64,000 bases of DNA from Natronococcus amylolyticus DSM 10524 (GTDB lineage: Archaea; Halobacteriota; Halobacteria; Halobacteriales; Natrialbaceae): NCBI RefSeq assembly GCF_000337675.1, contig NZ_AOIB01000038.1, positions 1 to 64,000 of the forward strand. Direction: 5' to 3'. Each line of letters opens with the position of its first letter. Position 1 is the first letter of the stretch. Shown here piece after piece: positions 33,951 through 38,452 of this stretch. The position numbers were made by a program, and so were the translations under genes. Below the pieces are notes generated by a model that did not search any database, was not told the origin of the DNA, and saw nothing but the letters and a program-made list of their open reading frames with translations.

Positions 33951-34063
33951 GTTTGAGGGGTAGGTGTTAGCGTGTTCAGTGTTTTGGGTTGTAGGCAGTC
34001 GCTCGAAGCGAGGTATTCCGGTACGATCTTAACCGCGTCGTTGGAACACCATCCGGAGGCATC

Positions 34064-34678
34064 ATGAATCGCTCGAGCTGTCGAATCCAACTGTTGGCAC
34101 GGGCCTTCGCGGACGCGATCCCGTCCGTCGATGAGAGAGCCACACATAGCAGGTGGAGACCTGGTATCGGCCCATTTGAAGAGGAGAACCAGATCAAAAT
34201 GATACGGGAGGAGGTTGAACAACGGGCATCTATCGGGGAGTCGATCAAACACGAACAACCCTATCCCAACTCCAATCGCCGCGTCGATTTGCTCTTGGAT
34301 GACGATGGTGATCTGTTGCCGATTGAGGCGAAGCTCATCCGTTTCAGACGAGATAACGGAAATATCGATCCGAACATGTACAAGAGCGTCTTCAGTCCAT
34401 TTCCGGAGCGGAGCTCTTCTACGATGCTAACAGACTGCCAGAAATTGGTAGAGTCCGGATTCGGTTTTCCGTGTGGGGTGCTCGGACTCTATTACGAGGC
34501 TAACGATGAAATGTATACGAATCTCTGTGCAGAGGGAATCGCCGAGAAATTCACTCTCGACGTAAAGTACTGGTACGACATTCCAATCGAAACGGTTTGC
34601 ATCGAGCCATTCGATGGTCTTCGTCACCCGCATCATCAGCACGGGGCAGTCATTGCCTGGAAAATCACCGAACCATGA
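34064..34678 (+). CDS. PD-(D/E)XK nuclease-like protein, unknown function
   Basis: 204 aa. The core NRRVDLLLDDDGDLLPIEAKLIR shows the D-(x)n-E-x-K signature (D about 74, E and K about 87-89), with an upstream helix EEENQIKMIREEV that could supply the first acidic residue. Downstream: YKSVFSPFPERSSSTMLTDCQKLVESG and a His cluster HPHHQHG. The gene is less GC-rich than its neighbours and sits at the left of an accessory segment. A defence or mobile-element origin is inference; it could also be a non-catalytic restriction-like fold. Confidence 0.6.
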   Translation: MNRSSCRIQLLARAFADAIPSVDERATHSRWRPGIGPFEEENQIKMIREEVEQRASIGESIKHEQPYPNSNRRVDLLLDDDGDLLPIEAKLIRFRRDNGNIDPNMYKSVFSPFPERSSSTMLTDCQKLVESGFGFPCGVLGLYYEANDEMYTNLCAEGIAEKFTLDVKYWYDIPIETVCIEPFDGLRHPHHQHGAVIAWKITEP

Positions 34679-34809
34679 CACAGGAAATTGATTTCGTCAG
34701 CTGCATCAGACCCAGCGAACGAGTCAGGCGAACTCCACCGTAGCCTCTGTACTTCTGAGTACGACGTTTTGCAGGTGGGCTTTGTAGCGGATTGTGTTAG
34801 CCGAACCTG

Positions 34810-35064
34810 TTACTCGGTGCTGACTTCGATCTTGGAATCAATCTCGAACGTAACTGCTCGAGTGCTTAGTGTCTCGGCGATCTCCCGACGTTGCTCGAGG
34901 GTGGGGTCGTCCCGCTCGAGGACCTGGCGAGCTGCACGGACAAAATGTGGAACATCGTCGTAGGCACTCACCACAGCCTTCATCTTGTTACAATCGTAGA
35001 ACTCGGCCGCTCGTTCGATCGCGTCTCGTCGACAAGCATAGTCGCCATCGGTTCGTATTCGCAT
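34810..35064 (-). CDS. small DNA-binding-like protein (DUF7692-type)
   Basis: 84 aa from ATG 35064 (MRIRTDGDYACRRDAIERAA); a GTG at 35076 adds four residues. One short strand followed by helices (EFYDCNKMKAVVSAYDDVPHFVRAARQVL), resembling the short ribbon-helix-helix-like proteins common on haloarchaeal plasmids and islands. Role unknown. Confidence 0.6.
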   Translation of the reverse strand: MRIRTDGDYACRRDAIERAAEFYDCNKMKAVVSAYDDVPHFVRAARQVLERDDPTLEQRREIAETLSTRAVTFEIDSKIEVSTE

Positions 35065-35076
35065 GCTCTCGTACAC

Positions 35077-35380
35077 ACGACCCCCAATAGTCTAGTTTTT
35101 TCGACTCACTGAACGGCCCATTTCGCCCCAAAACCCGCCGAACCTTTCGGATCATCGTAGAAGAACGGTGGTCTAGCTGACGGATCGACTCGAGATATGC
35201 ACACGGCGGTTCGCGTCTCGTGTGCATATTCGGGGAATAGAATTTGTCGGCGTGCAACCCCTGGGTTGTTGGCCCAATACAGTACAAACTAATCTCTCCG
35301 TCAGAGGAAAGCTTGAACGTGTATTCAAAAAATACCAACGGTCGTAATATTTCCCGCTCTATTCCAGACTCGAAAAATGG
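35077..35380. other. non-coding border of the AT-rich island
   Basis: About 300 bp between the DUF7692-type gene and the AT-rich cassette. It contains a 10-bp inverted repeat (35195-35229, listed separately); composition shifts from GC-rich to AT-rich at about 35270-35340. Open frames here (for example 34988-35338 minus) lack support. Confidence 0.5.
35195..35229. repeat. 10-bp perfect inverted repeat
   Basis: ATATGCACAC (35195-35204) and GTGTGCATAT (35220-35229) are exact reverse complements around a 15-nt loop. Possible hairpin, operator or recombination site at the edge of the AT-rich cassette. Confidence 0.7.
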
Positions 35381-35584
35381 CTAAAGATCAGTCGGCAGTT
35401 CTTCCTCCGACGCGACCATTCTATCAAATAATTCAACAAATTCTCCATCTTTTTTATCATTATCTAATGATTCATCAAATATACACATGGCGGCTCCGTC
35501 TGGGGAATAGAGACGAGTTGGTATTGAACGACCCTCGTCATTCATCGAGAAGATTTCATGTTTTCTTACATTTCTTCTAACCAT
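35381..35584 (-). CDS. small protein downstream of the MBL gene, unknown function
   Basis: 67 aa (MVRRNVRKHEIFSMNDEGRS). It starts 5 nt after the stop of the 731-aa MBL protein on the same strand and shares its low-GC codon use, so it is very likely cotranscribed. Basic N-terminus, central RLYSPDGAAMCIFDESLD, acidic helical end FVELFDRMVASEEELP. Family not recognised; a partner or regulator of the MBL protein is inferred from position only. Confidence 0.55.
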   Translation of the reverse strand: MVRRNVRKHEIFSMNDEGRSIPTRLYSPDGAAMCIFDESLDNDKKDGEFVELFDRMVASEEELPTDL

Positions 35585-35589
35585 ATTCT

Positions 35590-37785
35590 TTAATATTTCA
35601 TTTGGAGAAAGGACTTCTGAGAAACTAATTCAATAGTTCTTCTTGCAATGAATTTGTGAGATGGTATATTGGTGTACTCCGGATGATTTTCAATAACCCA
35701 ACCGAGATAATCATTTCCGTTGGATAGGAATCCTGAACTCATTTCTACAGGATAATGGCGGGTATGAGTGTCTGATTTCTTGAAAGAATTTCTATTATCT
35801 AATCTTTCAGGAGTGAATCCTAGAAGATCACCAGCCTTAAAATCTGATTCCATCCTTTCTGGGGGAGGTGATTCAGTCTGAGTATATATATCGTGTAATA
35901 TCTGCCGATTTTTTATTTTCGTCCCTCGTAATTCTTCAACGTGTTCACGGGTGGTTTCATCATAGTGTAATAATTGTTTTATATCTGCATCTTTTGGAGG
36001 ATGATCCGCCAAGAAGTCCGAGTCACTAGTCATTATACTCTCAAATATTATAATATGTCTTGCGATCTCTTCGTCTGTTTCAAGCGTTTTTGTTTGTTCT
36101 TCAGTCCTATCAACTATAACGTCGTCTCTTTTATAGAGCCTTTCAATTCTTTCTTCTTCTCCAAGCTTTCGAATGGCTTCTGACAGGTCCTTAAGCCGAA
36201 TATCGGGTGGACAGACAATAACTGGCCGTTTTTGTTCTAGTATATCTAATAAAAGTGGATCTTCTTTAATTGATGATAGATGCCTTGAAGCCTCGATTAA
36301 ACCAATATTAGTGTCAATGTCTAGTTGGTCAAGTATATCATGGACTGTGATCTCCTTCCCGTACTTTCCGAATCTCACCTCAAAATCACTCTTTGAGAAA
36401 ATATCATAGATGGTCCTGTTCAGCCCTACGTTATCTATATCCGCCATTTTGTATTTTTTAATAATTTCATCGGCAGTCAGGTTTTCAACCAAGTCACTTG
36501 AAGGAATTATTATGTTTTCATCTATTATATTCCTGATTTCTTCACCTAGTGCCCGTTTATTTGAGAACACTTGGCTCCCTTCATCAGTATACATAAAATC
36601 ATTAGAGGCGGTGACCTGATGAACAAAGGCTGTGCCAGCGAGAATCAGGTCGGCCAATGTTTCAGGACGAGGGTGACCATATTCCTCTAAAGAGCCATGC
36701 GCGATGAACGCATGGTCAGCACGAACCGTCGAAAAGAAGATGGGGGATATATTCCCATTGTTACTTCCATGATGAGGGACTTGAAGTAAATTAACATCCT
36801 TCAATTCTTCTTCATGTTCGCTTAAAAGATAGGAAAGAGTTTCCGAGGTTGCATCTCCGGTAAGGAGGGCTGTAGTACCCGTTTCTATATCCTTTAGTTT
36901 CAATATAGTGTTAACTCTATTGGCTATGTCACTATTTTCCCCATCAGAAATATACTGGCTGATAACTGGGTCAAGATTTGTAAACACGTTATCGGTAGAA
37001 CCAGCATCGTTCTCCGGGAGAATAGCATCCAAGCCATATCTCTCAAAAGATTCTTGTGGAGTCAATAGTAAGGAGGTTGGAGAATAGAGAAAAGGGATAA
37101 GGTGTCCTGAAGCTAGCTCTATTTCACCTCTGTCTTTACTTAGCTTCTGAATGTATGCATTAGCGTTCAATACAGGTGAGAAGGAGTCAAAATCCGTGAT
37201 TCCAAGCTTTTCTAAACCTTTTTCGTAATCCTGAACTGTTGTAGACGGTGGTGACAACCAGTCGATCTCGAAAGTCTCTTCAAGAGAATTACTTGTCCGA
37301 TGAGAGGTAATAAAGTGGTTGTAAACCTGTGCTTTCTTTGCTTGTTCATTTGATGACGAAAACTCATATAGTTTATCAAATAATTCGGCTATATCTGAAT
37401 TGATCTCATTAAGAGGTGGTATACCACCTGATTGATCGATTTGATTGGTCCTATCTTCTGTAGTAAGTAATATATCTACGGGAGGCGACCAAATGCCGTG
37501 AAGCGAGACTTCGGTCTCATCTATTAATGTCTCTATAAATTCAGTAGTCAAATTTTTAAAATGATCCTTGTGAAGATGGGATATAACGATATCTATTGGC
37601 CGTTCCTTATTCTGGAGAGATATATGGTCATTATTTGATAAATATCCTAGTGTTCTACTGTAGTAACTTTTGAAAGTTGTTTCACCATATGTCGCTTGTC
37701 CAAGATCGAAAAAGAGAATCGGCCCCTCCTCTTTTTCAACTATCACCATACTTCCATTACCTTGGTCCGGGAGATGAAGTCTCAT
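35590..37785 (-). CDS. ComEC/Rec2-type metallo-beta-lactamase-fold protein with long unknown C-terminal region
   Basis: 731 aa, clearly AT-rich against its surroundings. Residues about 1-400 form an MBL fold like the C-terminal domain of ComEC: MVIVEKEEGPILFFDLG, metal motif SHLHKDH (H70, H72, D74, H75), LLTGDATSETL (D311), PHHGSNNGN (H338, H339), AHGSLEEYGHPRPETL. An insertion of about 200 residues separates the first and second metal motifs. Residues 400-731 are helical and unrecognised, without TM helices, so it is soluble rather than a DNA-uptake channel. Strong TATA upstream. A hydrolase acting on nucleic acid or nucleotides is inferred from the family. Confidence 0.75.
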   Translation of the reverse strand: MRLHLPDQGNGSMVIVEKEEGPILFFDLGQATYGETTFKSYYSRTLGYLSNNDHISLQNKERPIDIVISHLHKDHFKNLTTEFIETLIDETEVSLHGIWSPPVDILLTTEDRTNQIDQSGGIPPLNEINSDIAELFDKLYEFSSSNEQAKKAQVYNHFITSHRTSNSLEETFEIDWLSPPSTTVQDYEKGLEKLGITDFDSFSPVLNANAYIQKLSKDRGEIELASGHLIPFLYSPTSLLLTPQESFERYGLDAILPENDAGSTDNVFTNLDPVISQYISDGENSDIANRVNTILKLKDIETGTTALLTGDATSETLSYLLSEHEEELKDVNLLQVPHHGSNNGNISPIFFSTVRADHAFIAHGSLEEYGHPRPETLADLILAGTAFVHQVTASNDFMYTDEGSQVFSNKRALGEEIRNIIDENIIIPSSDLVENLTADEIIKKYKMADIDNVGLNRTIYDIFSKSDFEVRFGKYGKEITVHDILDQLDIDTNIGLIEASRHLSSIKEDPLLLDILEQKRPVIVCPPDIRLKDLSEAIRKLGEEERIERLYKRDDVIVDRTEEQTKTLETDEEIARHIIIFESIMTSDSDFLADHPPKDADIKQLLHYDETTREHVEELRGTKIKNRQILHDIYTQTESPPPERMESDFKAGDLLGFTPERLDNRNSFKKSDTHTRHYPVEMSSGFLSNGNDYLGWVIENHPEYTNIPSHKFIARRTIELVSQKSFLQMKY

Positions 37786-37808
37786 TTGTTAGTTAATACA
37801 TGCTCATA

Positions 37809-37818
37809 CCTTTTATAG
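37809..37818 (-). promoter_or_regulatory. TATA box of the MBL cassette
   Basis: CTATAAAAGG on the minus strand, 24-33 nt upstream of the ATG at 37785. The strongest TATA match in the window; it supports leaderless transcription of the two-gene cassette. Confidence 0.65.
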
Positions 37819-37918
37819 ATATATCTAATGGCTCAAGATGAAACTCCCTGAGGTTAGACAAGAGAAAGCGATATTTGTAGACGTTATCGGAACAGGGTTA
37901 GGCATCCAAATATCTGGT

Positions 37919-38140
37919 TCAGCGATCGGCGACGGGGCCGACGAACCCGACCTCGGTACTGCCATCAGGCATCCGCCAGGCCATCTCAGCTCCTCGAAGC
38001 AGCGTCGGATCGTTACCGGACGTCGACCACTTCTCAAGGGCTTCGGCGGCGATCGCCCACGTATTCTCGAAACTGCTCGACTTTAGCCGAGAGAGAATCG
38101 TGTCGATCCGCAGCTGTGCGGTTCGCCCTTCTGGTCGAAC
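37919..38140 (-). pseudogene. coding remnant (C-terminal fragment of an unknown protein)
   Basis: The minus-strand frame reads VRPEGRTAQLRIDTILSRLK ... FENTWAIAAEALEKWSTSGN ... LLRGAEMAWRMPDGSTEVGF, ending at TGA 37919. Composition is coding-like and GC-rich, unlike the adjoining AT-rich cassette. There is no start codon before an in-frame TGA immediately upstream. It looks like the 3' end of a gene cut off by insertion or deletion next to tRNA-Trp. Family not recognised. Confidence 0.45.
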
Positions 38141-38173
38141 TCAAGAACATCTCTCTTAGTCGGTATCCAGAAC

Positions 38174-38193
38174 GGGTCGGAGGGATTTGAACC
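38174..38193. repeat. 20-bp direct copy of the tRNA-Trp 3' end (att-like)
   Basis: GGGTCGGAGGGATTTGAACC here is identical to 38280-38299 inside the tRNA-Trp gene (T arm and acceptor 3' strand), in the same orientation and 106 bp away on the 3' side. This is the pattern left by tRNA-targeting integrative elements. No integrase gene is in the window. Confidence 0.75.
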
Positions 38194-38277: not shown

Positions 38278-38452
38278 TGGGGTCGGAGGGATTTGAACCC
38301 CCGATCGACTGATATCTCCGGCGCGCCTCGGAACTCCAGAGGGTCATCACACGGACACTGATCAGGTGTCCGATCAGTATATCAGTCTGGAGTGTCGTCC
38401 CGGGCGCGGTGCCTCTGGAGTCAGTCGCCATGCCTGGCTTGGCCACGACCCC
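38278..38452 (-). tRNA. tRNA-Trp(CCA) with a 101-nt intron
   Basis: 5' exon 38415-38452, intron 38314-38414, 3' exon 38278-38313; mature length 74 without CCA. Acceptor GGGGTCG pairs with CGACCCC plus discriminator A; D stem GCC/GGC; anticodon stem ACTGA/TCAGT with loop CTCCAGA (CCA anticodon); T arm GGGGG-TTCAAAT-CCCTC. The intron lies between positions 37 and 38, the canonical archaeal site. The 3' end serves as a probable integration site (see 38174-38193). Confidence 0.93.
38328..38414 (-). ncRNA. C/D-box guide RNA within the tRNA-Trp intron
   Basis: Minus-strand order: degenerate box C (GGGACGA), guide GACTGATATA (38378-38387), box D' CTGA (38374-38377), box C' GTGATGA (38344-38350), guide CCTCTGGAGTT, and D-like box CCGA (38328-38331). 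The D' guide is complementary to GATATCAGTC of the pre-tRNA; the fifth base upstream of D' pairs with U39. The D guide is complementary to ACTCCAGAG; its fifth base pairs with C34. This matches the known haloarchaeal intron-encoded guide for Cm34 and Um39. Confidence 0.8.

Follow-up and report, generated by a model that had tools for sequence, protein, structure and literature searches.

ComEC-like metallo-beta-lactamase (MBL) proteins have been described in the ComEC/Rec2 DNA-uptake channel and in the defence systems Hachiman, AVAST, and canu. In the ComEC/Rec2 nuclease domain (PDB 9IC4), most metal-ligand mutants are virtually inactive, and nuclease activity requires the equivalents of the catalytic residues that we describe below (PMC12455585). 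In these three defence systems, the ComEC-like MBL is a pro-nuclease in which insertions block the active site. A trypsin-like protease activates HamM of Hachiman and likewise its AVAST counterpart, and a caspase activates CanC (PMC12799240). An anti-phage protein, 6A-MBL, is also represented by a family model (NCBIfam NF058524); our literature search found no paper on it.

Here we describe a two-gene cassette from Natronococcus amylolyticus DSM 10524 that encodes a 731-aa protein with a ComEC-type MBL core and a 67-aa partner. We favour, at a probability of about one half, the reading that the cassette is an accessory, probably antiviral module with a stand-alone, self-inhibited ComEC-type MBL nuclease as its effector. 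The window, by which we mean the whole stretch of 64,000 nt that was analysed, contains the following features:

33992..38168, no strand: variable cargo slot enclosing the cassette, delimited by genus comparison
34064..34678, + strand: PD-(D/E)XK-like ORF in the slot (VDLLLDDDGDLLPIEAK; sub-threshold Cas4 match), true start probably further downstream
34810..35076, − strand: DUF7692 gene in the slot (E 8.7e-27)
35381..35584, − strand: 67-aa orphan partner gene, presumably co-transcribed with the 731-aa gene
35590..37785, − strand: 731-aa gene, encoding the MBL core (residues 1–100 and 290–408), an acidic expanded region (about 101–289), and a C-terminal part (409–731)
36556..36918, − strand: second part of the MBL core (residues 290–410), with TGD311, PHHGS337–341, and YGHP369–372
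36919..37485, − strand: acidic expanded region (residues 101–289), a putative gate
37811..37818, − strand: TATA-box-like TATAAAAG, read from the sequence, ∼30 nt 5′ of the ATG
38173..38193, − strand: partial copy of the tRNA-Trp 3′ end at the slot edge, a possible old attachment site
38278..38452, − strand: tRNA-Trp(CCA) with a 101-nt intron, bounding the slot

Both ORFs are intact, and the 5-nt gap between them agrees with the two-gene arrangement proposed in an earlier note on this DNA, which had been made from the letters alone. By codon log-odds (usage trained on the 731-aa gene), the frame of the 67-aa ORF is the best of six and its value was reached by none of 2000 shuffles, so we regard this ORF as coding. 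The same note had pointed to a TATA box belonging to the pair and to a base composition unlike that of the chromosome, and both observations hold. Since TATAAAAG lies ∼30 nt ahead of the ATG of the 731-aa gene, the transcript would be nearly leaderless. The cassette is foreign in composition: GC is 0.388 in each of the two genes versus 0.653 in the haloarchaeal window, and the 731-aa gene has the only AT-rich third codon position (GC3 0.33) among the well-supported listed genes of the window. The maximum 19-residue hydropathy is 1.09 in the 731-aa protein and 0.18 in the 67-aa protein, values at which a transmembrane helix is not likely in either and which bear out the earlier argument that the 731-aa protein is not a DNA-uptake channel.

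The 731-aa protein carries a ComEC-type MBL core with its metal and catalytic residues. The metal motif set is complete, as first read, and consists of SHLHKDH (residues 69–75), TGD (309–311), PHHGS (337–341), and YGHPRPE (369–375). No Pfam family matches the protein; sequence searches of NCBIfam and the PDB return mainly ComEC/Rec2, and weakly 6A-MBL, around residues 281–381. We used 45 ComEC-type MBL segments from fetched loci to build an AlphaFold2 model, which is confident at residues 1–100 and 290–408 (block means 67–96). Among solved structures, this model is most similar in fold to the ComEC nuclease domain 9IC4 (E 2.8e-9, TM 0.72 on the target); the Pce phosphorylcholine esterase, an MBL of the same structural group, ranks second. 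The features of a ComEC-type MBL (HxHxDH or HxDxDH, the TGD aspartate, HHGS, and GHP) are present in order, residues, and fold, with an enlarged H75–D311 spacing. All 100 sequences of an alignment share H70, D74, H75, D311, H338, and H339, and 97 of them have S341. Because these residues are invariant and most of the corresponding metal-ligand mutants of 9IC4 are virtually inactive, the core is probably catalytic; we infer that it cleaves DNA. Both sequence and fold support a ComEC-type MBL that lacks a membrane channel. We rejected a ComEC/Rec2 channel, as the protein has no competence transmembrane domain (hydropathy ≤1.09) and its core begins at residue 1.

Two parts of the protein depart from this core. 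H75 and D311 are separated by 236 residues; in 99 relatives the median spacing is 98 and the largest 204. The earlier note was thus right to place an insertion between the first motifs but overestimated it at ∼200 aa; the excess is ∼140 aa, and nothing searched matches it. Residues 80–290 are acidic (pI 4.15), and the expanded region is modelled with low confidence, which may reflect missing relatives and not disorder. The blocked pro-nucleases of Hachiman, AVAST, and canu suggest, as an analogy and not a proof, that the region gates the active site. The C-terminal part (residues 409–731) is mainly helical in the AlphaFold2 model, at low confidence, and reaches a pLDDT of just 32 when modelled alone. 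It measures 323 aa and not the roughly 330 first given. The companion statement that it matches nothing stands, since Pfam, NCBIfam, PADLOC, PHROGs, and the PDB gave no match above chance. In particular, these databases returned no match to a known housekeeping family, one of two results that, according to the note, would speak against its proposal; the other, homologs lacking the small gene and lying outside accessory regions, did not appear in the collections searched either. The C-terminal part could turn out to be something new.

No full-length relative of either gene was found in any collection searched. These collections comprised 125 genomes of the family, ∼390 genomes each sampled from the class, order, and phylum (overlapping sets, ∼700 distinct archaeal genomes), plasmids and phages (tblastn), peptide-pattern scans of genome and viral contigs, and whole-genome searches; 50,697 phage records and the IMG/VR pattern scans likewise contained no relative of the cassette. 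In some contig pattern scans the query alignment included synthetic rows, which solely steered pattern choice toward MBL motifs. Among the matches listed, only parts of the MBL core are covered, almost all within residues 230–445. Methanogen and haloarchaeal ORFs of similar length (656–714 aa) were set aside, as those fully read are secreted or lipoprotein-like MBLs with other extra parts. The 67-aa protein has a single other match, weak and over an interrupted frame, in one of 292 genomes, and Pfam, NCBIfam, PADLOC, and further searches found no known partner family for it. As no relatives were found, neither the expanded region nor the C-terminal part nor the partner gene can be shown to be conserved. 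For the same reason, the argument for a defence role of the cassette is one of guilt by association and of analogy.

The position of the cassette provides the strongest evidence for such a role. Seventeen bases of the tRNA-Trp 3′ end are present twice with no mismatches, at 38177 and 38283 (0.16 matches expected at up to three mismatches), in line with the earlier description of an adjoining tRNA with a duplicated 3′ end. The second copy sits in the flank common to most sister genomes. In most related genomes examined, this tRNA lies 3′ of the same DUF5794 gene. The right flank is kept in all eight other genomes of the genus. In five of these (G002, G004, G005, G006, and G007), the left flank is conserved as well, as far as about 33990–34017, and the content between is replaced; in most genomes, the partial tRNA copy marks the right-hand break. 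What occupies the slot instead includes a type I CBASS in G002, with a CD-NTase (cyclase E 1.9e-97) and Cap15 (E 2.7e-27), and an LmuB-like ATPase in G005 (E 9.8e-22). The G006 slot holds a 198-aa protein with sub-threshold HEPN/AbiU2 matches only, and the G004 and G007 slots hold unmatched genes. In G017, a genome from another genus, the same tRNA is followed within 4 kb by a gene for SRA-HNH type IV restriction (E 3.9e-23). The site therefore has the features of a genomic defence hotspot, namely conserved flanks and variable content that includes known defence genes. Since CBASS, LmuB-like, and type IV restriction genes occupy the same place, we consider the slot a cargo site that has repeatedly acquired defence genes. 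Some slots have no recognisable defence gene, and the background control is small (ten other window genes gave one PADLOC hit at 1e-5). The earlier link to biological-conflict systems thus gains support from position, and its overall interpretation is upheld only in part.

Several of these loci are of interest in themselves. In G002 (L093:7888-9454), Cap15 is split over two overlapping frames, a 78-aa part with two TM segments and a 169-aa receptor part, and is therefore either frameshifted or affected by a sequencing error. The G005 locus (L094:7348-10062) encodes the LmuB-like SMC-type ATPase, preceded by a small membrane protein and followed by a protein of 149 aa, neither of which matches a PADLOC family; the locus is possibly a Lamassu-like variant. 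The G007 slot (L095:6484-9396) contains an AT-richer overlapping pair (364 and 382 aa) after a 199-aa gene, with no Pfam or PADLOC match. A DUF7692-like 100-aa ORF lies 3′ of tRNA-Trp in G011 (L100), beside AT-rich unmatched genes. Outside the slot, G004 has a gene for a stand-alone MBL of 348 aa, and the next gene, which overlaps it, encodes a protein of 224 aa with hydrophobic stretches (L066:5290-7007); the two are another candidate conflict pair.

Among described systems, the ComEC/Rec2 nuclease domain shares the MBL subtype and the catalytic residues with the 731-aa core (PMC12455585) and is its best match in sequence and fold. Unlike ComEC/Rec2, the 731-aa protein lacks a competence membrane channel and has 140 extra core residues and the 323-aa C-terminal part. 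The pro-nucleases of Hachiman (HamM), AVAST, and canu, compared by description, resemble it as soluble ComEC-like MBLs with extra core residues and a defence context. The extra residues of the 731-aa core might form a blocking insertion, but the model is of low confidence there, and no cleavage site could be assigned, as no relatives were found. However, the pro-nucleases have a linked protease, whereas the cassette has none; its large C-terminal part and its 67-aa gene have no counterpart in those systems. No trypsin-like or caspase protease gene was found in the slot or its immediate flanks. The cassette thus lacks the defining feature of the protease-activated modules of Hachiman, AVAST, Lamassu, and canu, and its activation would have to differ from the published mechanism, which cannot hold here unchanged. 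The match to 6A-MBL is weak (residues 296–342, E 1.7e-5), and we rejected membership in that family because the score of 24.1 bits compares with a curated cut-off of 220 and the match is limited to the common TGD–HHGS stretch. The candidate defence families PDC-M48B and PDC-M64B were also rejected, with just 45–72 residues matched at E 2.6e-4 or weaker. A PDC-M48B profile search of the relatives carries no information, since its controls were silent as well.

Long H–D spacings occur elsewhere in ComEC-type MBLs. Nine of the 99 relatives exceed 150 residues, two of them ComEC-length proteins and seven stand-alone MBLs from four Streptomyces (L134, L136, L140, L160) and three Bradyrhizobium (L163, L165, L185) genomes. 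A subtilase (Peptidase_S8) gene lies directly upstream of six of the seven (four by Pfam, two by motifs), with none seen beside the MBL of L136, and a patatin gene is confirmed by Pfam in three of the seven loci. This recurrent cassette of an S8 subtilase, a stand-alone long-spacing ComEC-type MBL, and, where checked, a patatin resembles a subtilase counterpart of the trypsin–MBL pro-nuclease modules. Our literature search found no paper that combines the three, and the main text of PMC12799240 mentions neither subtilases nor patatins. The Streptomyces and Bradyrhizobium MBLs are like the 731-aa protein in standing alone and in their long spacing (163–204 residues there), but they have subtilase and patatin neighbours and no 320-aa C-terminal part, and the similarity is confined to the core. 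Two related MBLs of about 340–350 aa on IMG/VR contigs (L214, L215) also have an enlarged HxHxDH–HHGS spacing (206 residues).

Other readings of the cassette must be weighed against an antiviral one. The tight two-gene order, the small acidic partner, and the inserted stretch beside a tRNA would suit a toxin–antitoxin-like addiction or inter-element conflict pair. With the MBL nuclease as toxin and the 67-aa protein as antitoxin, it would stabilise the inserted DNA and not be antiviral. Such a pair is unlikely: the small gene is second in order and matches no antitoxin family, and typical toxins are smaller than a 731-aa protein with a 323-aa extra part. Alternatively, the cassette might be cargo of a virus or integrative element that serves the element itself, in replication, DNA degradation, or competitor exclusion, and has no role in host defence. 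No integrase or viral hallmark was recognised in the slot, both ORFs are intact, and the phage records and IMG/VR scans yielded no relative, which makes this reading very improbable despite the foreign composition, the tRNA-proximal slot with its repeated tRNA end, and the absence of relatives from the cellular genomes searched.

The substrate of the core may also be questioned. MBL cores switch substrate easily, and the second place of Pce among the fold matches raises the prospect of a phosphodiesterase or phosphatase whose substrate, as with Pce, is not DNA but a small molecule or a lipid head group. The ComEC nuclease is, however, the top match in both sequence and fold, and the PHHGS serine, a substrate contact in ComEC, is retained; we therefore judge a non-DNA substrate quite unlikely.

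In the antiviral module that we favour, the 731-aa protein would be a soluble ComEC-type MBL and probably a two-metal deoxyribonuclease. The acidic expanded region, which interrupts the core between HxHxDH and TGD, would keep it inactive. The helical C-terminal part may sense infection or bind a target and, once triggered, would free the active site for DNA cleavage. Presumably translated from the same transcript, the 67-aa protein may be a dedicated regulator, whether inhibitor, chaperone, or activator. More tentatively, and with considerable doubt, the cassette may represent a protease-independent class of gated archaeal ComEC-type nucleases that combines sensor, gate, and nuclease in one polypeptide, with the 67-aa partner setting the threshold. 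It would then be a one-protein immune effector with an undescribed sensor domain.

If the reading that we favour is correct, MBL pro-nucleases, which are known so far from bacterial systems in which a protease activates them, would also occur in archaea, as effectors that stand alone and carry their own regulator. In this haloarchaeal family, the slot 3′ of tRNA-Trp, which unmatched genes already occupy in sister species, would then offer an address at which to seek further unknown archaeal defence genes.
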